From the NCBI GenBank assembly GCA_029265355.1, contig JAJUJL010000001.1:248001-312000 (forward strand): DNA of 64,000 bases, given 5' to 3'. Origin of the DNA: Chloroflexota bacterium. Lineage in GTDB: Bacteria; Chloroflexota; Anaerolineae; Anaerolineales; UBA4823. The notes under the pieces were generated by a model. The model ran no database searches. It was given only the letters and a program-made list of their open reading frames with translations, and was not told the origin of the DNA. The position numbers were made by a program, and so were the translations under genes. Position 1 is the stretch's first letter; every line of letters starts with the position of its first letter. This document shows, piece after piece, positions 3,005-20,441 of the stretch.

Positions 3005-4318
3005 GTGCTTATGCAAACCACAGCCTACAACAGCCGAATCATACTTCGCAATCGCCTGCTGCCCGCCCTCCTGGGACTGGTGATTGTCATGCAGTTGCTG
3101 GATCCTTCGCGGGTATGGAGCGTGTTGCTGCTTGGTCTTGCAGGAACCTGGCTGGTAAGCTATGTGTGGGTGCGCAGCATGGCGCGCTCGCTGTTCTTGC
3201 GCCGTGAGATGCGCTTCGAATGGGCCCAAGTCGGCGATCTTATGGAAGAGCGCTTCACGCTGGAAAATCGCGGCCCCTTGCCAGCGCTGTGGGTCGAGGT
3301 GAACGATCATTCCAATTTACCCGGCTATCATGTCAGCCGAGTCAGTGACGTGGGCGCAAACAGTCAACGGCGTTGGGTGACGAATGGAACATGCGAGCGG
3401 CGAGGACTGTTCACCCTGGGCCCAACCAGCCTGAGCTGCGCCGATCCGTTTGGCCTGTATGAGCTGACCATCTACTACCCTTCCAGCACTTCGATCATGG
3501 TCATGCCTCCGGTGGTTCCGCTGCCTGAAATCGAAGTGGCGCCAGGCGGGCGCAGCGGAGAAGGGCGTCCCAAGCCAGATGCGCCTGAGCGCATCGTCTC
3601 GGCAGCCGCGGTGCGCGAATATATCCCTGGCGACAGTTTGCGGTATATCCATTGGGCGACCACCGCCCGTAAAGGGCAGCCCTATATTCGCCTCTTCGAT
3701 GGCACACCAGCCAGCGACTGGTGGATTTGTCTGGACCTTCAGGACGCAGTTCAAGCTGGCGAAGGCTGGGATTCGACAGTGGAGCACGGCATCGTTCTGG
3801 CAGCCTCGCTGGCAGACCGCGGTCTGCGGTTGGGACGCGCCATTGGCCTGGCCTCCAACAGCACGCCTGTCATCTGGCTGGCGCCACAGCACAGCGACTC
3901 CCAGCGCAGCAGGATGCTGCGCGCCCTGGCCCTGGCAGAGCCCGGACCCTTTTCGCTGGCAGAATTGTTGGAACGCAACAAGGCCTCGTTCGGTCAGCGA
4001 TCCAGCCTGATCATTATTACCGCCAATCACTCTCCCTCCTGGCTGGATGCAGTGATCACACTGACGCGCAAAGATATCACTCCCACCATCCTGCTGCTCG
4101 ATCCAGCCAGCTTCGGCCTTTCACAACCAGTCACAGGCCTGCCAGGTCTGCTGACAACCTGGGGGATCTCTGCTTATTTGATTCCCCGTACACTTCTGGA
4201 TCGTCCCGAAGCTCGCCCTGGCACGCAGGGGCGGTGGGAGTGGCGGGTATCCGCAACCGGACGCGCTGTGCCTTTGCACCGCCCTGGCGGCAGCGATTGG
4301 AGGCTTATCTCGGGATGA
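3005..4318 (+). CDS. DUF58 domain membrane-anchored protein
   Basis: A 437-residue protein. Two hydrophobic helices lie near residues 17-33 and 36-52, then a beta-rich segment, then the DUF58 core with the family signature REYIPGDSLRYIHW followed by TARKG (residues about 205-225). The C-terminal half has a vWA-like fold pattern (WWICLDLQD). DUF58 proteins usually sit beside a MoxR AAA ATPase and a membrane transglutaminase. Here the transglutaminase overlaps by ATGA and forms a transcriptional unit, but no MoxR gene is adjacent. The molecular role is undefined. An alternative start is ATG at 3011. Confidence 0.85.
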   Translation: MLMQTTAYNSRIILRNRLLPALLGLVIVMQLLDPSRVWSVLLLGLAGTWLVSYVWVRSMARSLFLRREMRFEWAQVGDLMEERFTLENRGPLPALWVEVNDHSNLPGYHVSRVSDVGANSQRRWVTNGTCERRGLFTLGPTSLSCADPFGLYELTIYYPSSTSIMVMPPVVPLPEIEVAPGGRSGEGRPKPDAPERIVSAAAVREYIPGDSLRYIHWATTARKGQPYIRLFDGTPASDWWICLDLQDAVQAGEGWDSTVEHGIVLAASLADRGLRLGRAIGLASNSTPVIWLAPQHSDSQRSRMLRALALAEPGPFSLAELLERNKASFGQRSSLIIITANHSPSWLDAVITLTRKDITPTILLLDPASFGLSQPVTGLPGLLTTWGISAYLIPRTLLDRPEARPGTQGRWEWRVSATGRAVPLHRPGGSDWRLISG

Positions 4319-6672
4319 GCGACCTGCCAGCAAAGGCTTTGCATTGGGTGGTGGTCAATAGTGGGGTGCGCAACCTGCTTGCTTTGGGGATGATGCTCCT
4401 GGCGCAGATCAGCGTGGCATACGGCCTGGATATCTCCATCCGCAGGCTACCCGATAATTACCTGCTGAACGCGGCTGTGGTTGGCTCATTCACCGGCTGG
4501 TTTTTGGGCGCAAAACGCTGGAATAGTTTTTGGGGAGCTGTCGTTGGGTTGACCGCGGCCACAGCCTGGAATTTGATCGTTGCCGGTAAGCTGTTTTTTC
4601 TTATCCTTCAGACAATTGCACTCTCCATTGGATTGCTGTTCAGTGGACTGCCGTGGAAAGTGGATTGGACCCCTGCAGCGGACCTCATCTTGAGGCTGAG
4701 CGCATCCACCCAGGCTGCCCTGCTGGAACTTAATCATTGGCTTTACCGCCTGTGGCAGGGCAATCTGAGCTTCTCTCCTGTGGCAACCGCCATGTTTTGG
4801 GGATTTTGCTGCTTTGTGAGCGCAGCCTGGGGGAGCTGGCGCCTGCGCAGGCAGCATACCCCGCTGGCAGCAATCCTGCCCGGCGGCTTGCTGTTAGCGG
4901 CGGTCTTGAACTACACCCGCAGCCCGGTGCTCAGCCTGGCGTCTTTACTGGCATTGCTGTTGATGCTCATGGCATTGGAAAACTATGCCGCGCGCGAAAC
5001 CCATTGGGAGTCGAATGGCCTGGATTTTTCGGAAGAGTTGCGCCTGGATGTGGCCGTGACTGCGATTGCGCTCTCTTTGGGAATTGCCACAGTTGCCGGA
5101 GCCGTGCCTTCGCTGTCGCTTGAGCCAGTGGCGGAAATGGCTCGCCGGGTGCTTCCCTCACCCCAAAACAGGCCGCTGGCTGAGTCTTTGGGGCTGGACG
5201 CCAGGCCTGGCGCATTCGGTGAGCCGTTAGCTTTGGGGGCGACGGGGCTGCCACGCCAGCATCTGCTCGGCAGTGGCAGCGAGCTTTCGCAGAAGCTGGT
5301 TTTTACGGCGAGCACCAACGATCCGCCCGTCTCACCCTCGCAAGCGCCTGAGAATCCGAGCGCGCCGCGCTACTATTGGCGTAGCCTGGTTTACGACGTT
5401 TACACCGGGCAAGGGTGGCAAACCAGCGCCACCACCGAAGCCGGTTATTCACCGGGCGAGTTTATCTTTGAAAATTTCACCACCCCTGGCCGTTACCTGG
5501 TTCAGCGGATCGAAGGCGCGGTGGATTTGAACGGTCTACTCTACACCGCCGGCGCGCCAGCAGCCGCGGACCGGCCTGTCACAGGTCTGTGGCGAACGCC
5601 TCCCCAAGCGGACGACCCCGGTGATGGGTTTGCTTTCACTCTTACCAGCAACCGCTATCAGGCTGTATCCTGGCTGGCAGCGGCTGGCAGCCAGGATTTG
5701 CGCCAGGCAAGCAATTTATACCCACCGGCAATTGCACAGCGCTACTTGCAGCTCCCCGATAGCCTTCCAATGCGGGTGCGCCAGCTCGCCTTACGCCTGA
5801 CGCAGGCGCAACCCACCAACTATGATAAGGCGCTGGCAATTGAAAGTTACCTGCGTCGCTACACCTACAATCTCGCTCTTCCAGATCCACCCTATGACCG
5901 CGACTTGTCCGATTATTTTCTGTTTGAGCTACAGCAAGGCTACTGCGATTACTACGCCACCGCCATGGTTGTCCTGGCGCGCGCCGCAGGCATTCCCGCT
6001 CGCCTGGTCACCGGCTACGCGACTGGCGCATTCGACCCACAGCAATCCCAATACCGCGTCGTCGAAGCCGATGCCCATTCCTGGCCGGAGTTATACTTTC
6101 CCGGTTTTGGCTGGATCGAATTCGAGCCGACCGCCGGATTAAGCGCCATTCAAAGAGAGGCGTTGGCTGCGTCCGCTGGCGTGCTGGGCCAGACGCCACC
6201 ACCACCAGATCTGTCCCTGGCATTCTCGCCTGAGAACGATCTGCTTTGGCGTGTCTTGATCGCCAATCCAGCATGGCTGATCAGCCTGCTGATCGCCACC
6301 GCGCTGCTGATTCTTTCGCTGGTTGCTTTCTTCAAGGCCAGGATCGTTTCACAGCCTGAGCTGATCGAATCCATGCTGATCAAGATGAAGCGGCAAGCGC
6401 AACACCTGGATATCGAAACTTCAGCCGGGCAAACCGCCTATGAGCTGGCATCCGCTTTGCAAAGGCGCCTTGATCCCGCAACGACGGGTGGCTTGTGGCG
6501 GCGCATCCTCTATCCCTGCCAGTCCGACCTGGATCGATGGGCGCAAGCCTACTCACGCAGCGTGTATGGACCACCACCACTGCCGCTTCTTGCGCATGGG
6601 CAAGCCATCTCCGCCTGGAAAAGATTGCGTTGGAGGCTGTGGGTGGCTCGCTACTGGCGGCCAAAGCATTGA
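4315..6672 (+). CDS. Membrane transglutaminase-like protein (TgpA/DUF3488 type)
   Basis: A 785-residue protein whose ATG at 4315 overlaps the DUF58 stop codon (ATGA). About six to seven N-terminal helices span residues 15-290. A large extracytoplasmic part follows, with the transglutaminase core at about 490-620: catalytic Cys544 in QGYCDYYATAMV, His588 in DAHSWPE, and a third acidic position in GWIEFEPT. A last helix near 655-680 precedes a cytoplasmic tail. The reading frame stays open far upstream of 4315, but that stretch lies inside the DUF58 gene. The fold suggests a peptide amide-bond or protease-like reaction at the cell surface; the substrate is unknown. Confidence 0.88.
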   Translation: MSDLPAKALHWVVVNSGVRNLLALGMMLLAQISVAYGLDISIRRLPDNYLLNAAVVGSFTGWFLGAKRWNSFWGAVVGLTAATAWNLIVAGKLFFLILQTIALSIGLLFSGLPWKVDWTPAADLILRLSASTQAALLELNHWLYRLWQGNLSFSPVATAMFWGFCCFVSAAWGSWRLRRQHTPLAAILPGGLLLAAVLNYTRSPVLSLASLLALLLMLMALENYAARETHWESNGLDFSEELRLDVAVTAIALSLGIATVAGAVPSLSLEPVAEMARRVLPSPQNRPLAESLGLDARPGAFGEPLALGATGLPRQHLLGSGSELSQKLVFTASTNDPPVSPSQAPENPSAPRYYWRSLVYDVYTGQGWQTSATTEAGYSPGEFIFENFTTPGRYLVQRIEGAVDLNGLLYTAGAPAAADRPVTGLWRTPPQADDPGDGFAFTLTSNRYQAVSWLAAAGSQDLRQASNLYPPAIAQRYLQLPDSLPMRVRQLALRLTQAQPTNYDKALAIESYLRRYTYNLALPDPPYDRDLSDYFLFELQQGYCDYYATAMVVLARAAGIPARLVTGYATGAFDPQQSQYRVVEADAHSWPELYFPGFGWIEFEPTAGLSAIQREALAASAGVLGQTPPPPDLSLAFSPENDLLWRVLIANPAWLISLLIATALLILSLVAFFKARIVSQPELIESMLIKMKRQAQHLDIETSAGQTAYELASALQRRLDPATTGGLWRRILYPCQSDLDRWAQAYSRSVYGPPPLPLLAHGQAISAWKRLRWRLWVARYWRPKH

Positions 6673-14034: not shown

Positions 14035-15018
14035 CTAAGCAGCGTCCTGGCGTAATCGCTCCAAAATCGCCGGCCAGGCTGCCTTGAAAGCTTCGACAAC
14101 GAGTGGGTCATACAGCCTGCCGCTCTCTGCCAGAATCTGCTGGTATGCCACATCGGGAGCGACCCCTTGTTGGTAAGGGCGAGTCGCGCACATGGCGTCT
14201 ACCGAATCAGCCACCGCCACGATCCTGGCTGCAAATGGAATATCTTCTCCCCTCAGGCCATCCGGATAGCCGCTGCCATCCCACCGCTCATGGTGCGAGC
14301 GGATGACCGGGATTGCAGCAACCAGGTATTGGATCTCTTTGACAATTTCGACACCGATGAGCGGGTGCCGGTGCATGAGTTCCCACTCTTCTTCATTCAG
14401 CTTAGAGGGTTTTTTCAGCACGCTTTCGGGTATATGGATCTTACCAACATCGTGGAGGATGCTGCCATATTCCAGGTCTCGTAATTGCTCATCCTTCCAA
14501 CCAACTTGCCTCCCAATCAGCAAGGCGATGTCGCGAACGCGTTCGACATGGTTGCGCGTCCCCTGGTCGCGCAGCTCAATAGCATTCGCCAGCATGATCA
14601 GGCTGGATGCATAAGCTTGCTGGAGCTGCACGTACAACAATTGCTGGTTGCGAGCCAGGCGAGAACGGATCGTGGTAGTCAGTTCTTTGCGCGTCACCGG
14701 CTTGACCAGGTAATCCTCCACGCCCATCCGTTTGCCAGCAAATATCTCATCCCGCCCGCGACGCGCCGTTAGAAATATAAACGGGATTGACATCCAGGCT
14801 TCCCGAGAGCGCACTTGCTCATAAAACTGGTACCCATCCATCTCCGGCATGGAAATATCCGAGAGGATTAGATCGGGCACATGGTTAGCCATCTTATCCA
14901 GTGCTTCATGCCCGTGTGCGGCTGTCACAGCCACATATCCCTCGGACTGCAACAACGCCTCCAAACCATGGCGCAGCACATCGTTATCCTCAACGATCAG
15001 AATGACTTCTCCGGCCAC
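14035..15018 (-). CDS. Response regulator with HD-GYP output domain
   Basis: 327 residues. The receiver domain (1-120) has Asp54 in LILSDISMP and Lys106 in DYLVKP. After a helix linker comes an HD-GYP domain (about 140-320) with His189-Asp190 in ILHDVGK, HHERWDGSGYPDGL and the last Asp in VADSVDAM. HD-GYP domains hydrolyse cyclic di-GMP, so the expected output is a change in c-di-GMP, not direct DNA binding. The GTG start at 15018 overlaps the kinase gene by 22 bases, so the two are translationally coupled. It ends convergently 43 bases from the flavin reductase gene. Confidence 0.93.
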   Translation of the reverse strand: MAGEVILIVEDNDVLRHGLEALLQSEGYVAVTAAHGHEALDKMANHVPDLILSDISMPEMDGYQFYEQVRSREAWMSIPFIFLTARRGRDEIFAGKRMGVEDYLVKPVTRKELTTTIRSRLARNQQLLYVQLQQAYASSLIMLANAIELRDQGTRNHVERVRDIALLIGRQVGWKDEQLRDLEYGSILHDVGKIHIPESVLKKPSKLNEEEWELMHRHPLIGVEIVKEIQYLVAAIPVIRSHHERWDGSGYPDGLRGEDIPFAARIVAVADSVDAMCATRPYQQGVAPDVAYQQILAESGRLYDPLVVEAFKAAWPAILERLRQDAA

Positions 15019-17837
15019 TTTTGTCTCTCCGTGGAAGGCAGTTTAACCGTAAAAGTTGAGCCTTGTCCAACTTTGCTCTGGATCTGAATTGTACCAGCAT
15101 GTCGATCAACGATTTCTTTTACAATCGAAAGTCCCAAGCCTGTGCCGTGTTTTTTGGTCTGGCGTACACGTTTCCCCCTGTAAAATCGTTCGAAAATATG
15201 CGGCAAGTCTTCCTCATCGATACCAATACCGGTATCCTGGACTTGTAGGATGATATCATCTTCATCAGCAAAGACCCTTACCTTTACATCCCCTTTCATC
15301 GTGTAATTCAACGCATTGTACACCAGGTTCGTGACCACCCGCGAGAGCTGGTTAATGTCACCAGCCACAATCGCAGGCGCTTGACTGCCTTCGAAACTCA
15401 ATTGCAACCCCGCCATATTTGCCAGCGGTTTATGTGCGATAACCACTTCATGGACCAACCGGTTCAGGTCAATCTCGCGGAACTCGACTTCCCGGGCTTT
15501 GCCGGAGGATAGGCGCGACAGGTCCAGGATATCTTCTACCAGTTTGATGAGCAACTGGGTTTGTTCCTTCAGGATGTTCAGGTAACCATCCCGGCGATCA
15601 TCGGGGGCAGACTCTAAGAGCTCCAGATAAAGGCCGATATTGGTTGTCGGTGTGCGCAGCTCGTGTGAAACATCTGAGACAAATAAATCTTTGAGCCGGT
15701 CGAGCTCCTTTTGGCGGGTAACATCGCGCTGGCTGCCAACGAAGCCATAAACTTCTCTATTTGGGTTCCGCAAGGGCGAGATGGTGAGTTGCACATCATA
15801 AACGCCACCATTCTTCCGCTTCCCTCGTAGCTCGCCCGTCCAGGTTGGAAGGTGCTCCAAAGTCTCATTGATCTGTTTCCTGAGCAGGTCAACATCGGCA
15901 ATCTCGTACAACGACCAAATCGATTGACCCGCCAATTCCAAATTTTGGTATCCAGACTGGCGCTCATAGGCTTCATTGACGGTTTGAATGTGACCGATCA
16001 AATCGATAACAATCACCCCTTCACCTACCGAGGCCAGGATGGCCTGCGAGCGTTCCATGGCAGCGTTCAATTCAGCGGTGCGTTCGAGGACGCGTTGTTC
16101 CAGGTCTTCCGCATGCCGCCTGAGCTGGGTGACCAAATGGATGTTTTCGATGAGCGGGCTGAGCTGGCGAGCCAACACCCGCATAATATCCAGGTCTTCG
16201 GTGCTGAACTCATCCCCGCCAAATTTCGGGCCCAGAGCGATCAATCCCAGCATGCGACCATGACCAATGATTGGCACCCATAGGTGCATTTGAGGGCTGT
16301 TCAACAGGCGCTCCTCTTCAGGAGAGAGCACAGTTTGCGCAAGCGCTTTTTTCAACTCAACGCGTTCCATTGTGCCGCCCATCTGCAGCAGGTAGTTCAA
16401 GCTGCTGCGAGGCAGAGCCGAGTACGCTGATTGGTCGCGCTGGGTGGGCTGAGGAGCAACTGAAACAATCGAGTAGTTGCCCTTGATATCGGAGAAAAAC
16501 ACGCAGACTTCTTCCAGGCGCAAGGTTTTATGCAGTCGGTAGCTAATTAAGTCTGCCAGTTGCTGCAAATCTCCGATCTGTTCCGTTCCCTGGCTGATGG
16601 TGGTGATCGCAGAACGATAATCGTACCAACCCCCATAAAAGATTGTGTCGACAAAGCGAGACAACACTCTTTGGAGAGGCACAAAAATGCTCACCAACAG
16701 CAGCACGATGACTGTGTTCAATGCCGGCGCGCTGAGCACATCCAATGGCAACAACTGGACCAATACGAAATTCAGCAACAGGTAAACGCCGCCCAACAAG
16801 GAGTAAACCAGGATCACCGTTGCGCCGCGGTTGACATGCGCTTCGATCGCAATCAGTTGGTGGCGGAAGATCGCATACCCATAGGTGATCGGAAAGAGCG
16901 CAAGGAATAAAGGGAACAGCGCATCCGCAATGATGGCTTCGCCTAGAAGTGCATCGGGTAAGATAAACAATGTGACAAGCGGTACCAGGCTGATCGCACC
17001 GCCCAAGACTACCAGGCGAATCTTTGCACGGGTCCCAGTCGTGGTTGTATTTCGATATGCGTAGAACAACAAACCAACAACAAATAAAAAATTGATCGCA
17101 ACATAATAACGGGCCGCAAAATTTAATACAGGATACAATGGAAGCGAGCGTAATCTCTCTGGTCCTACAAACAAGTATGGCAGACTTGCAATCGCACCCA
17201 CCAAGTACAGGAAGATGATAATGCGCCGCTGAAGGCGTAATCCAAAGTTTTGTGGAAAATTAAAATGAAAATGAACCGCCAAAGGTCCAAGAAACCACAA
17301 TAGAAAGCCAAATAACCCTGAAGCCCATTGAGGTCCCAAATAAGTATTTACCCCTGCAGATAAAAGGGCAGCGAATGCCTGAAAAAAAAGAAAAGGTTGA
17401 ATTAAGGATTCTTTGACTACATTGAAAGCCAGTAAAGCCAGGCCAATGCCCCAGAAGGTCAGCGCCAAAACCAGGGGCGCCAGGCGGCCAGCTATCTCCC
17501 AGGGCGGCGCATGCACCAGCGTGAAGCTGCGCGTAAAAGTCGCTTCCCCGCGCTTGATCAGCAAAGAGACATCATCACCCGCATGTTTATCCTGATAGAA
17601 GGGAAAAGCCTCGCTGAAATTCACCTCATCGATCGAAATGACCTGGTCGCCAACTTGCAGGATCGAACTGGTAGGCCCCCGGGGATTGATCTCCTGGATG
17701 ATTCCGGATGACGTGTAGCGCACAATCCCGTCGTAGGGATAGGCAAGCGCCTGCCATCCGCTCCAGATAATGAATACCAGGACGGCCAGCGCCAGGACAA
17801 AAGGCGAGCCACTACGCAAGCGCTGCACATTCACCAT
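14997..17837 (-). CDS. ComP-like multi-TM sensor histidine kinase (PDZ, GAF, PAS, HisKA, HATPase)
   Basis: 946 residues. Topology from sequence: TM1 near residues 12-32, an external PDZ-like domain at about 40-110 (IQEINPRGPTSSILQVGDQVISID), about eight more TMs to residue 385, GAF at about 420-560, a coiled coil, PAS at about 595-705, HisKA with phospho-acceptor His725 in DVSHELRTP, then HATPase with FERFYRGK and GTGLGLSIV. TM-PDZ-multi-TM is the plan of the Bacillus ComP pheromone receptor, although the kinase core here is the common HisKA type. It has its own promoter, lies after the prenyltransferase-like gene and precedes its response regulator. A peptide ligand is inferred from these neighbours. 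Confidence 0.9.
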   Translation of the reverse strand: MVNVQRLRSGSPFVLALAVLVFIIWSGWQALAYPYDGIVRYTSSGIIQEINPRGPTSSILQVGDQVISIDEVNFSEAFPFYQDKHAGDDVSLLIKRGEATFTRSFTLVHAPPWEIAGRLAPLVLALTFWGIGLALLAFNVVKESLIQPFLFFQAFAALLSAGVNTYLGPQWASGLFGFLLWFLGPLAVHFHFNFPQNFGLRLQRRIIIFLYLVGAIASLPYLFVGPERLRSLPLYPVLNFAARYYVAINFLFVVGLLFYAYRNTTTTGTRAKIRLVVLGGAISLVPLVTLFILPDALLGEAIIADALFPLFLALFPITYGYAIFRHQLIAIEAHVNRGATVILVYSLLGGVYLLLNFVLVQLLPLDVLSAPALNTVIVLLLVSIFVPLQRVLSRFVDTIFYGGWYDYRSAITTISQGTEQIGDLQQLADLISYRLHKTLRLEEVCVFFSDIKGNYSIVSVAPQPTQRDQSAYSALPRSSLNYLLQMGGTMERVELKKALAQTVLSPEEERLLNSPQMHLWVPIIGHGRMLGLIALGPKFGGDEFSTEDLDIMRVLARQLSPLIENIHLVTQLRRHAEDLEQRVLERTAELNAAMERSQAILASVGEGVIVIDLIGHIQTVNEAYERQSGYQNLELAGQSIWSLYEIADVDLLRKQINETLEHLPTWTGELRGKRKNGGVYDVQLTISPLRNPNREVYGFVGSQRDVTRQKELDRLKDLFVSDVSHELRTPTTNIGLYLELLESAPDDRRDGYLNILKEQTQLLIKLVEDILDLSRLSSGKAREVEFREIDLNRLVHEVVIAHKPLANMAGLQLSFEGSQAPAIVAGDINQLSRVVTNLVYNALNYTMKGDVKVRVFADEDDIILQVQDTGIGIDEEDLPHIFERFYRGKRVRQTKKHGTGLGLSIVKEIVDRHAGTIQIQSKVGQGSTFTVKLPSTERQKWPEKSF

Positions 17838-18089: not shown

Positions 18090-19031
18090 TTAACTCGACT
18101 GAAAGATCGAGAGAATTGATACCAGCTCGTCGTAAGCCGGTGGGGTTGGCGCTGCCGCCTGCAGCGCCTGCTTTGCCAGGGCAAGATGCTTTTCCTGTTC
18201 CGCGCGGATGTACACCCCTGAGCGGCAATCATCCAGCATAGCCAGGGCTTCACTGGCGGCTGCAGGGCTTTCCTGCGCCTTGGACAACAAATCCAACAGG
18301 GTCTGCTGCTCTTTTTCCGGCAGCACCTCCAGGGCATAAAGCACTGGCAATGAGCGCCGCATGCCTTTCAACTCTCCGTGCACACCGCCCGGCGAGGCAG
18401 GCAGGATTTCTGCCAGTTCGTCCGCAATCTGCACCAGCACGCCCAGGTGAACGCCAAACGTTTCATAAGCCCTGAGCTGCGCCTCGCTGGCACCTGCCAG
18501 GCGGGCGCCTCCCCAACTGGCCATCGAAAAGAACGCCCCTGATTTCGCTTCTGCCAGGCGCCAGAACATCTCCAGACTTGGCCGAGATGTGACCAGGTCG
18601 GCGTGCTGTCCGCTGCACATCACCAAAAACCGGCGGTAGAATTCCGCCGCTACGTGGCGGGCGCGTTCACCCAGTTGCGCTCGCTCCTGCATGCGGGCCA
18701 GCAGCAATGAGGCAGTGAAGTACAATCCGGTGGCCGTGTTCAATGCAACGCCGGGTCCATGCTCAGCCCACCAGTGCTGCGGCGGGTCGCCATCCTGGAC
18801 GCTGTCCATCAGATGAGCCGCCAGGTAGAGCAGCACCCAGGCCTTCGCCAGTTCTTCAGCGTTCTGTGGGTCGCCGCCGGCGCCCTGGTGGCAGATGACC
18901 GGCAGCCGGGCCAGCTTTAACCCGCCGCCAGTCCCGCCACCGCCAGAAAAAACAGCCAGGCGCATGGTGGCGATAAACTCCGGCCATGCGCCTGACTGCT
19001 CCCAAGTTTGGGACAGGAGATCTGCGGTCAA
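18090..19031 (-). CDS. ComQ-like polyprenyl synthetase family protein
   Basis: 313 residues from a TTG at 19031 (ATG at 18965 is an alternative; neither has a good ribosome binding site). Isoprenoid synthase features appear in order: an Asp-rich first motif HLMDSVQDGD (D76, D80, D82), GQHADLV, KSGAFFSM at 163-170, FGVHLGVLVQIADELAEI (second Asp motif reduced to DE, 191-209), and LKGMRRSLPVLYAL. Both Asp motifs are weaker than in housekeeping prenyl synthases, as expected for specialised members such as ComQ, which isoprenylates the Trp of ComX. The frame is the same as that of the upstream peptide gene, 21 bases away beyond its TAG. The role is inferred from context. Confidence 0.75.
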   Translation of the reverse strand: MTADLLSQTWEQSGAWPEFIATMRLAVFSGGGGTGGGLKLARLPVICHQGAGGDPQNAEELAKAWVLLYLAAHLMDSVQDGDPPQHWWAEHGPGVALNTATGLYFTASLLLARMQERAQLGERARHVAAEFYRRFLVMCSGQHADLVTSRPSLEMFWRLAEAKSGAFFSMASWGGARLAGASEAQLRAYETFGVHLGVLVQIADELAEILPASPGGVHGELKGMRRSLPVLYALEVLPEKEQQTLLDLLSKAQESPAAASEALAMLDDCRSGVYIRAEQEKHLALAKQALQAAAPTPPAYDELVSILSIFQSS

Positions 19032-19052: not shown

Positions 19053-19265
19053 CTAGAGAACCCAGGAGGCTGCCCCGCCGTTGGCCAGCGATACCAGGCG
19101 GGTTTTTTCCTGCTCACCGCGAGTGGGCGCGCTCAGCAGAAATGCCAGTTCTTCTTTGCTCAGCTTGAGACCGCGCTCTTCCAGCGCCGTTTCCGGGTCG
19201 GCATAAAGCTGGGAAGCGAAGTCATTGTCCTTCGAGAGTTGGTATACAACTTGTGCCAGTGTCAT
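19053..19265 (-). CDS. Trp-containing small peptide, ComX-like/RiPP precursor candidate
   Basis: 70 residues. The ATG at 19265 sits five bases after a perfect GGAGG; an adjacent in-frame ATG at 19268 is too close. An upstream extension to 105 residues would ignore this site. Residues 1-46 look like a RiPP-type leader (QLSKDNDFASQL, DPETALEERGLKLSKEEL). The tail is basic, then ANGGAASWVL, with a Gly-Gly that could be a cleavage site and the only Trp at position 68, third from the end. ComX pheromones carry their prenylated Trp at a comparable place. There is no Cys. A prenyl-synthetase-like gene follows at once and a ComP-like kinase comes next. Processing and product are predictions. Confidence 0.7.
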   Translation of the reverse strand: MTLAQVVYQLSKDNDFASQLYADPETALEERGLKLSKEELAFLLSAPTRGEQEKTRLVSLANGGAASWVL

Positions 19266-19424
19266 CATAACCTCCGTGTCGTGATGAGTGAAAAATTGTA
19301 ACGTGCGATGCTGTTTGCTGGCCTTAGGTATCCAGCCCCGCCATTCCGATCTCCTGATAGAAAAGTTCACCTTTCAATTTTGTTAGGTTAAGCCTATCAT
19401 ATTTGCAAGGTCTAGGACAAGTGT

Positions 19425-19523: not shown

Positions 19524-20441
19524 ATGGGAAAAAAGTCCTTGATCACCCTCGACTTGAATTTTATGGGTATGCCAGGCACAATTGCCGCCTATCTGCTGCC
19601 CTACAGCTCTGGGGTAGTATTGATCGAATGCGGGCCTGGCTCAACCAGAGAGGCGCTGATTGCCGGTCTGAGGGCTCACGGTTTTACCCCAGGCGACATC
19701 AGCGATGTTTTTCTCACCCACATCCATCTCGATCATGCCGGGGCTGCCGGCTGGCTATCACGCCAGGGCGCCCGCATCCACGTCCATCCAGTGGGCGCAC
19801 CCCACCTGATCGACCCCGAAAAATTGCTCGCCAGCGCCCAACGCATTTACGGGGAACACATGCAGCGCTTGTGGGGTGAATTCCTCCCCGTATTGCCCGA
19901 TAAACTTTCGGTTCTTTCCGACGATCAAACTGTCGAAATCGATGAGCTGCATATTCGAGCCATTGACACTCCCGGCCACGCCGAACATCATTTTGCTTAC
20001 CTTTGCAACGGTATCTGCTTTACAGGTGATATTGGTGGCGTGCGCATGGCAGGGTTTCAACACATTCGCCTGCCCATGCCCCCGCCCGAATTTCACCTGG
20101 AGAAATGGCGGCGCAGCATCCAACGTCTGCAGTCTGAATCCTTCCAATTCATCGCACCCACCCACTATGGTCTCTTTGCAGACCCACAGCGCCACCTGGC
20201 GGCAGTCTGGCAGGCGCTGGATGAAATCGAGGCCTGGATGGAAGCAATCATGCCGGGCGAACCTGACTTCGAGACACTCAACCGCCAGTTTCTGTCATGG
20301 ACTGAGCAGCGCTCCCTGGCAGCCGGGCTGACCCACGAACAGCTCCAGGCATACGAACTCGCCAACCCCTCCTGGATGTCGACTTATGGCATCCAGCGCT
20401 ACTGGCGCAAACAGCGCAACTTGGGCAACCCATCGATGTGA
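19524..20441 (+). CDS. MBL-fold metallo-hydrolase
   Basis: 305 residues of the metallo-beta-lactamase fold: THIHLDH (H66, H68, D70, H71) binds the two metal ions, DTPGHAEHHFAYL carries the next His and FTGDIGG the bridging Asp. Members hydrolyse thioesters, lactones or other esters and amides; the substrate cannot be assigned. GGGAG precedes the ATG. The gene is divergent from the peptide gene and shares its regulatory gap, so a link to signal turnover is conceivable but unproven. The sirtuin gene overlaps its end by GTGA. Confidence 0.85.
   Translation: MGKKSLITLDLNFMGMPGTIAAYLLPYSSGVVLIECGPGSTREALIAGLRAHGFTPGDISDVFLTHIHLDHAGAAGWLSRQGARIHVHPVGAPHLIDPEKLLASAQRIYGEHMQRLWGEFLPVLPDKLSVLSDDQTVEIDELHIRAIDTPGHAEHHFAYLCNGICFTGDIGGVRMAGFQHIRLPMPPPEFHLEKWRRSIQRLQSESFQFIAPTHYGLFADPQRHLAAVWQALDEIEAWMEAIMPGEPDFETLNRQFLSWTEQRSLAAGLTHEQLQAYELANPSWMSTYGIQRYWRKQRNLGNPSM

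Follow-up and report, generated by a model that had tools for sequence, protein, structure and literature searches.

This locus raises the question of what is made from a 70-codon reading frame whose product ends in a short tail with a single tryptophan, and which neighboring proteins act on that product. The frame lies at 19,053–19,265 on the minus strand of the window (the whole 64,000-nt stretch of Chloroflexota DNA analyzed here) and encodes 70 amino acids followed by a stop codon (P0002; MTLAQVVYQLSKDNDFASQLYADPETALEERGLKLSKEELAFLLSAPTRGEQEKTRLVSLANGGAASWVL), with the C-terminal end LVSLANGGAASWVL as translated from the minus-strand ORF. A preliminary description had read it as a RiPP precursor with a leader and a short core in a ComX-type setting, and had named a double-glycine cleavage site and the hexapeptide AASWVL as its specific product. 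From comparisons with relatives and with known systems, we propose that the gene probably encodes the precursor of a secreted prenyl-Trp peptide pheromone that would be prenylated by the adjacent prenyltransferase (PT) and sensed by the adjacent histidine kinase (Table 1).

The precursor gene and its leader

The 70-aa ORF is a real gene, and its start Met (the ATG just after a GGAGG sequence) is common to the relatives. The gene is not the plus-strand frame over the same positions. A promoter and terminator scan at the locus gave counts not above those in shuffled sequences. All elements listed in the preliminary description (DPETALEERGL, a basic segment, ANGG, AASWVL) occur in the translation, in which Trp68 is indeed the sole aromatic residue of the tail.

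The precursor search took in 61 genomes, 37 of them from the window's family (Anaerolineales). Strong relatives with matching leaders were found in about 22 of the 37 family genomes and weaker ones outside the family; in public records, the relatives' loci belong to MAGs labelled Anaerolineales, Anaerolineae or Chloroflexota. The leader resembles those of the Os1348/Frankia_peptide precursors of the NHLP clan, with both matches under the curated cut-offs: NCBIfam NF038399 (Os1348) matched at E 6.5e-10 with 38.9 bits, 1.1 bits short of the cut-off of 40, and Pfam Frankia_peptide (PF14407) at E 1.2e-5 with 25.9 bits, well short of the cut-off of 48. The precursor also matched TIGR03793 (E 0.003), and 21 of 23 relatives share the Frankia_peptide match. 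Over the 23 aligned relatives, mean identity is 64% in the leader and 34% in the tail. The proposed organization of a leader and a short core is borne out. Substitution patterns among the relatives show that purifying selection acts on the whole gene, less strongly in the tail (leader pS about 0.2–0.9 vs pN about 0.02–0.23; tail pN mostly exceeding leader pN).

The ComX family model (PF05952) did not match P0002 even at E 1; the genome search with this model is uninformative, as the B. subtilis control itself lay below the cut-off. Homology of the leader to ComX was rejected, since the profile comparison was not significant (Prob 1%, with 4 of 100 column shuffles scoring as high).

Table 1 Features of the locus in the window, with the evidence for each
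Feature	Coordinates	Strand	Evidence
Response regulator, HD-GYP output	14035..15018	-	PF00072, PF13487; 22-nt overlap with end of kinase gene
Histidine kinase, 946 aa: TM1, PDZ ectodomain, TM bundle, GAF, PAS, HisKA, HATPase	14997..17837	-	Pfam; AlphaFold residues 1-412
TM bundle of kinase, TM2-10	16635..17504	-	helices in model; ComP profile match
PDZ-like ectodomain, kinase residues 34-111, proposed peptide receptor	17505..17738	-	Foldseek; Pfam PDZ E 0.005
ComQ/Ord1-like trans-IDS-fold PT, 313 aa	18090..19031	-	PF00348, Ord1 match, AlphaFold fold
Second Asp-rich motif region QIADELAE, Q201 and D204	18408..18431	-	both invariant in 15 relatives; Q and D aligned in Ord1
First Asp-rich motif, D76...D80, MDSVQDGD	18792..18806	-	D76 and D80 invariant in 15 relatives
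Precursor peptide gene P0002	19053..19265	-	translation, family relatives, purifying selection
Variable tail, residues 47-70, ends GGAASWVL	19056..19127	-	34% mean identity, invariant Trp
Trp68 codon, third from C-terminus, proposed prenylation site	19062..19064	-	invariant in 23/23 aligned relatives
NHLP/Os1348-type leader, residues 1-46	19128..19265	-	NF038399 and PF14407 matches, 64% mean identity
Shine-Dalgarno-like GGAGG, 5' of precursor start	19271..19275	-	read from sequence

The prenyltransferase and the kinase

The product of the gene next to the precursor matches the Pfam polyprenyl synthetase family (PF00348, E 3e-14), and its AlphaFold model (pLDDT 87) has the all-helical isoprenoid-synthase fold. 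The closest solved sequence is Ord1 (PDB 9v4g–9v4j; E 7.9e-14 with the single sequence and 9.5e-21 with a profile), a Trp farnesyltransferase whose substrate is free Trp (PMC13290415). The two proteins share the fold, and in the second motif their Gln and Asp align, whereas they are only 24% identical, Ord1 acts on the free amino acid, and Ord1 has kept basic residues behind its first motif. When the PT model was aligned by structure, it showed a fold common to all polyprenyl synthases, with Z-scores that do not set Ord1 apart from canonical enzymes.

The PTs were aligned with canonical synthases of the same genomes and with six ComQ proteins from annotated Bacillales plasmid loci. The PTs and ComQ have both retained the first Asp-rich motif and lost two IPP-binding motifs, GGKRxRP and the RRG that follows the first Asp-rich motif; Q-x-x-D is common to both, and both carry KSG or KTG (KCG in one ComQ) in place of the KTA of canonical synthases. 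The Gln before the second Asp-rich motif (Q201) is invariant in 15 PT relatives; it does not discriminate Trp prenyltransferases, because canonical synthases also have it. The second Asp-rich motif itself reads ADELAE in the window and mostly DDxxD/E in the relatives, as against ND or GD in all six ComQ. Bacillus ComQ needs the ND/GD type of motif (PMC5331326). PalQ, however, keeps Asp residues of the DDxxD type and prenylates Trp, and a double mutant in these residues is still active (PMC10853753); therefore the difference from ComQ in this motif is no objection to Trp prenylation as such.

With a ComQ model, the PTs scored 54–88 bits (35 for the most divergent, L063) vs 24–46 for the canonical synthases from these genomes. 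Conversely, with a PT model the ComQ proteins scored 69–85; since some canonical synthases reached 113, the sequence relation between the PTs and ComQ is not an exclusive one. A FastTree tree of PTs, ComQ and canonical synthases held too few outgroups to settle PT and ComQ as one clade.

The next protein is a histidine kinase, whose model of residues 1–412 shows TM1 followed by a PDZ-like beta domain and then about nine more helices. The best Foldseek matches of the ectodomain were DegS PDZ domains with bound C-terminal peptides (E 3e-3, probability 1.00). In ComP, the sensor comprises ten TM helices and an extracellular PDZ domain, the proposed binding site of ComX (PMC9620489), and the sensor of the window's kinase is homologous to it: profile comparison with real ComP sequences gave E 4e-18 over 393 columns, spanning the PDZ domain and the TM region. 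PT-linked kinases had higher ComP-profile scores than other kinases retrieved with the same sensor (Mann-Whitney p 8e-7, indicative only because the sequences are related); the ComP-like sensor is also present in kinases of these genomes without an adjacent PT. The catalytic core, unlike that of ComP, is HisKA (PF00512) with GAF and PAS domains. Within the kinase, the ectodomain belongs to the most variable regions, with 36% identity vs 62–74% in the catalytic domains. The ComX-type setting of the preliminary description is borne out: downstream of the precursor lie a prenyltransferase that resembles ComQ and a kinase whose sensor resembles that of ComP.

Conservation of the trio and of the tail tryptophan

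The order precursor-PT-kinase, with the genes adjacent, is found in nearly all relatives with enough contig. Two long single-contig assemblies (L046 and L047) have a PT split into short frames and no kinase detected beside it. Upstream of the trio, a divergent gene for a metallo-beta-lactamase-fold hydrolase (19524–20441, plus strand) occurs in about half of the family loci. The genes 3' of the kinase vary by subgroup: a PPDK-regulator-like gene, dnaG-like and sigma-factor-like genes (all identified from the sequence by eye), or the HD-GYP regulator of the window. No adjacent receiver gene was detected next to the kinase in the relatives, L063 excepted. Because the genes after the kinase differ between subgroups, the trio itself is suggested to be the functional unit. 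One relative (L039) carries a SAM methyltransferase gene between PT and kinase (positions 4098–5075), whose weak family matches include geranyl diphosphate 2-C-methyltransferase (70.6 bits vs a cut-off of 400).

Trp68 is one of nine invariant columns among the 23 aligned precursors, consistent with the earlier view of this Trp as the key residue. It is the second residue from the C-terminus in most relatives and the third in the window, L044 and L048; in the ComX of four annotated Bacillales loci it is the second. The family relative L048 has three copies of a unit of about 11 residues ending in VSWYQ or TSWYQ.

For loci outside the family, a PT profile was searched over 396 genomes of the class, and the best 20 outside loci were examined, of which 19 were assessable. 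The same kinase adjoins the PT in 18 of the 19, and a Trp-tailed precursor lies upstream of the PT in 16; the upstream peptide was not found for L204, L217 and L219, and the sequence of L208 begins inside the PT. Of these precursors, 12 were found by the leader model alone, with Trp not required, and all 12 have a tail Trp. Together with the 23 aligned relatives and three others, a tail Trp is present in 38 of 38 PT-linked precursors, vs about 36% expected at a Trp frequency of 1.4%, although the 38 are not phylogenetically independent. L174, from another family of the phylum, combines a precursor with the tail SFWWQ, a PT with the ComQ-type ND motif and a kinase. Upstream of the PT in L157 and L164 are candidate precursors that end in NKGWWSVI and TANWS and have no recognisable NHLP leader.

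Four loci outside the family have tandem cores, in copies from 3 to more than 10: in L213 a unit containing GPNGPWDWQF occurs five times (54-bp repeat), L210 has four copies (48-bp repeat) and L214 three. The precursor of L212 has at least six AEGPFPGWQGMEL-like units and then, beyond unread bases, at least five of a VLSPAGRAWSWPK-like type; it seems to combine two different cores. Because repeat units in the multi-core precursors measure 11, 13, 16 or 18 residues, we suggest a core of roughly 6–13 residues ending just after Trp; the repeats do not fix the cut site in the window.

A proposed peptide signal, its alternatives and its precedents

How the parts might work together can be outlined, by analogy with ComX and PalX, as follows. 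The NHLP-type leader would be recognized by the product of the next gene, the trans-IDS-fold PT, which would no longer elongate IPP and would instead transfer an allylic prenyl chain (C10–C20 by analogy) to Trp68. A protease would then trim the leader, a short prenyl-Trp peptide would leave the cell, and its C-terminal end would be bound by the PDZ ectodomain of the neighboring kinase. The kinase is translationally coupled to the response regulator, and since that regulator is of the HD-GYP type, the output in the window's organism alone may be a change in cyclic-di-GMP. Neither a processing protease nor an exporter for the peptide was identified, which counts against this reading.

Among the alternatives, the one that survives best, although we regard it as unlikely, is that the prenylated-Trp peptide is antimicrobial or membrane-active, and that the kinase serves immunity or self-sensing and not quorum sensing. 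Leaders of the NHLP clan are often found in RiPP toxins and antibiotics, peptides with a prenylated Trp can have antimicrobial activity (PMC13290415), and a conserved response regulator is missing. However, the trio includes no exporter and no immunity gene, its constant partner is a kinase with a ComP-like, peptide-type sensor, and the tail diverges along with the ectodomain, as in pherotypes; both are fast-changing parts (34% and 36% identity).

It is less probable still that the PT product is a free polyprenyl diphosphate or another isoprenoid, sensed by the kinase, with the small protein as an accessory or regulatory subunit. The polyprenyl-synthase fold, the Z-scores that leave Ord1 among the canonical enzymes and the DDxxD kept in the second motif of most relatives would all fit such an enzyme, but the loss of GGKRxRP and RRG would not, and the invariant Trp in a variable tail, repeated in tandem cores, would have no role.

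A double-glycine cleavage that releases AASWVL, the product named in the preliminary description, is very improbable. ANGG does stand directly before AASWVL in this one sequence; among 24 peptides checked, however, a tail Gly-Gly occurs only in the window and in L043, where it directly precedes Trp, and it is missing from most units of the multi-core precursors. No C39 peptidase transporter was seen among the neighbor genes examined. The comparison of homologues thus upheld two expectations, a conserved Trp and a variable core, and failed the third, a conserved GG; because GG is not conserved, it was rejected as a cleavage motif, and neither the cleavage nor the hexapeptide is supported.

In its receptor and in the position of Trp, the locus comes closest to ComQXPA: the two share a PT with the first Asp-rich motif intact and the IPP-site motifs lost, a Trp second to fourth from the C-terminus within the last 5–10 residues (Trp68 of 70 here), and a many-TM kinase with an extracellular PDZ domain. 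The locus is not ComQXPA proper, and differs from the Bacillus system (as drawn from PMC4008528 and PMC5331326) as follows. First, the precursor leader is unrelated to ComX (PF05952) by the profile test, and some relatives have tandem cores. Second, the gene order is X-Q-P here and Q-X-P in ComQXPA. Third, the second motif is QIADELAE in place of the pseudo-SARM NDxxx or GDxxx of ComQ. At last, a HisKA kinase with GAF and PAS and an HD-GYP regulator stand where ComQXPA has a HisKA_3 kinase and the LuxR-type ComA. Acquisition of a bona fide ComQXPA system from Firmicutes, for which the same functional parts and the same Trp position speak, is accordingly hardly credible given this leader, these kinase and regulator classes, and a PT only distantly related to ComQ. 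A separate record, a plasmid labelled Stenotrophomonas rhizophila (CP031730.1), has a comQXPA nearly identical to that of Lysinibacillus fusiformis (NZ_CP130332.1) with the same flanks; it is likely mislabelled or contaminated and gives no evidence for comQXPA in Proteobacteria.

By parts list, the nearest published precedent is PalX/PalQ/PalP of Paenibacillus alvei, described in 2023, in which Trp prenylation of the precursor is proven (PMC10853753). Taken by its published description, PalXQP shares with the locus a set of three genes, for a precursor (with a leader that is probably of the NHLP type here), a trans-IDS-like enzyme that prenylates Trp in PalXQP and putatively does so here, and a histidine kinase (adjacent here), a conserved Trp at the C-terminal end, and a retained second Asp-rich motif with a conserved Gln before it. 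It differs in phylum, in that PalQ was placed in a separate cluster under the annotation terpene synthase, whereas the window's PT matches Pfam polyprenyl synthetase, and in that PalX ends in Trp whereas the window's family has one or two residues after it; PalQ activity is lost when residues are added after the terminal Trp of PalX (PMC10853753). The best reading of the pheromone proposal is of a system processed and sensed in the ComX style on a probably NHLP-type leader like that of PalX. As a ComP-like receptor is here combined with a PalX-like leader, the receptor-prenyltransferase pair may be the stable unit, with leader, kinase core and output interchangeable. With less confidence than for the locus itself, we lean toward a widespread, separately evolved class of prenyl-Trp peptide signaling in Chloroflexota, with an NHLP-type precursor, a trans-IDS-fold PT, a PDZ-TM kinase and freely exchanged outputs.

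If this is true, prenyl-Trp pheromones extend well beyond Firmicutes, outside which a 2014 census found no comQXPA-like locus (PMC4008528), and reach Chloroflexota, a phylum for which hardly any cell-cell signals are known; a search of full texts, mostly of open-access papers, found no report of peptide quorum sensing in Chloroflexota or Anaerolineae. With the trio conserved, ligand and receptor can be tested directly, and the multi-core precursors would be natural substrate libraries for Trp-lipidating enzymes.

Four further loci (L173, L175, L176 and L177) have Frankia_peptide/Os1348 precursors that end in or beside Trp (STW, TQWG, GLWL and ADEW, respectively). In L176 and L177 the precursor lies between a membrane protein, which in L176 has a SpoIIE phosphatase domain, and a protein without a Pfam match that bears Asp-rich, isoprenoid-synthase-like motifs. 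Loci of this type possibly represent a PalQ-like branch with a phosphatase instead of a kinase.
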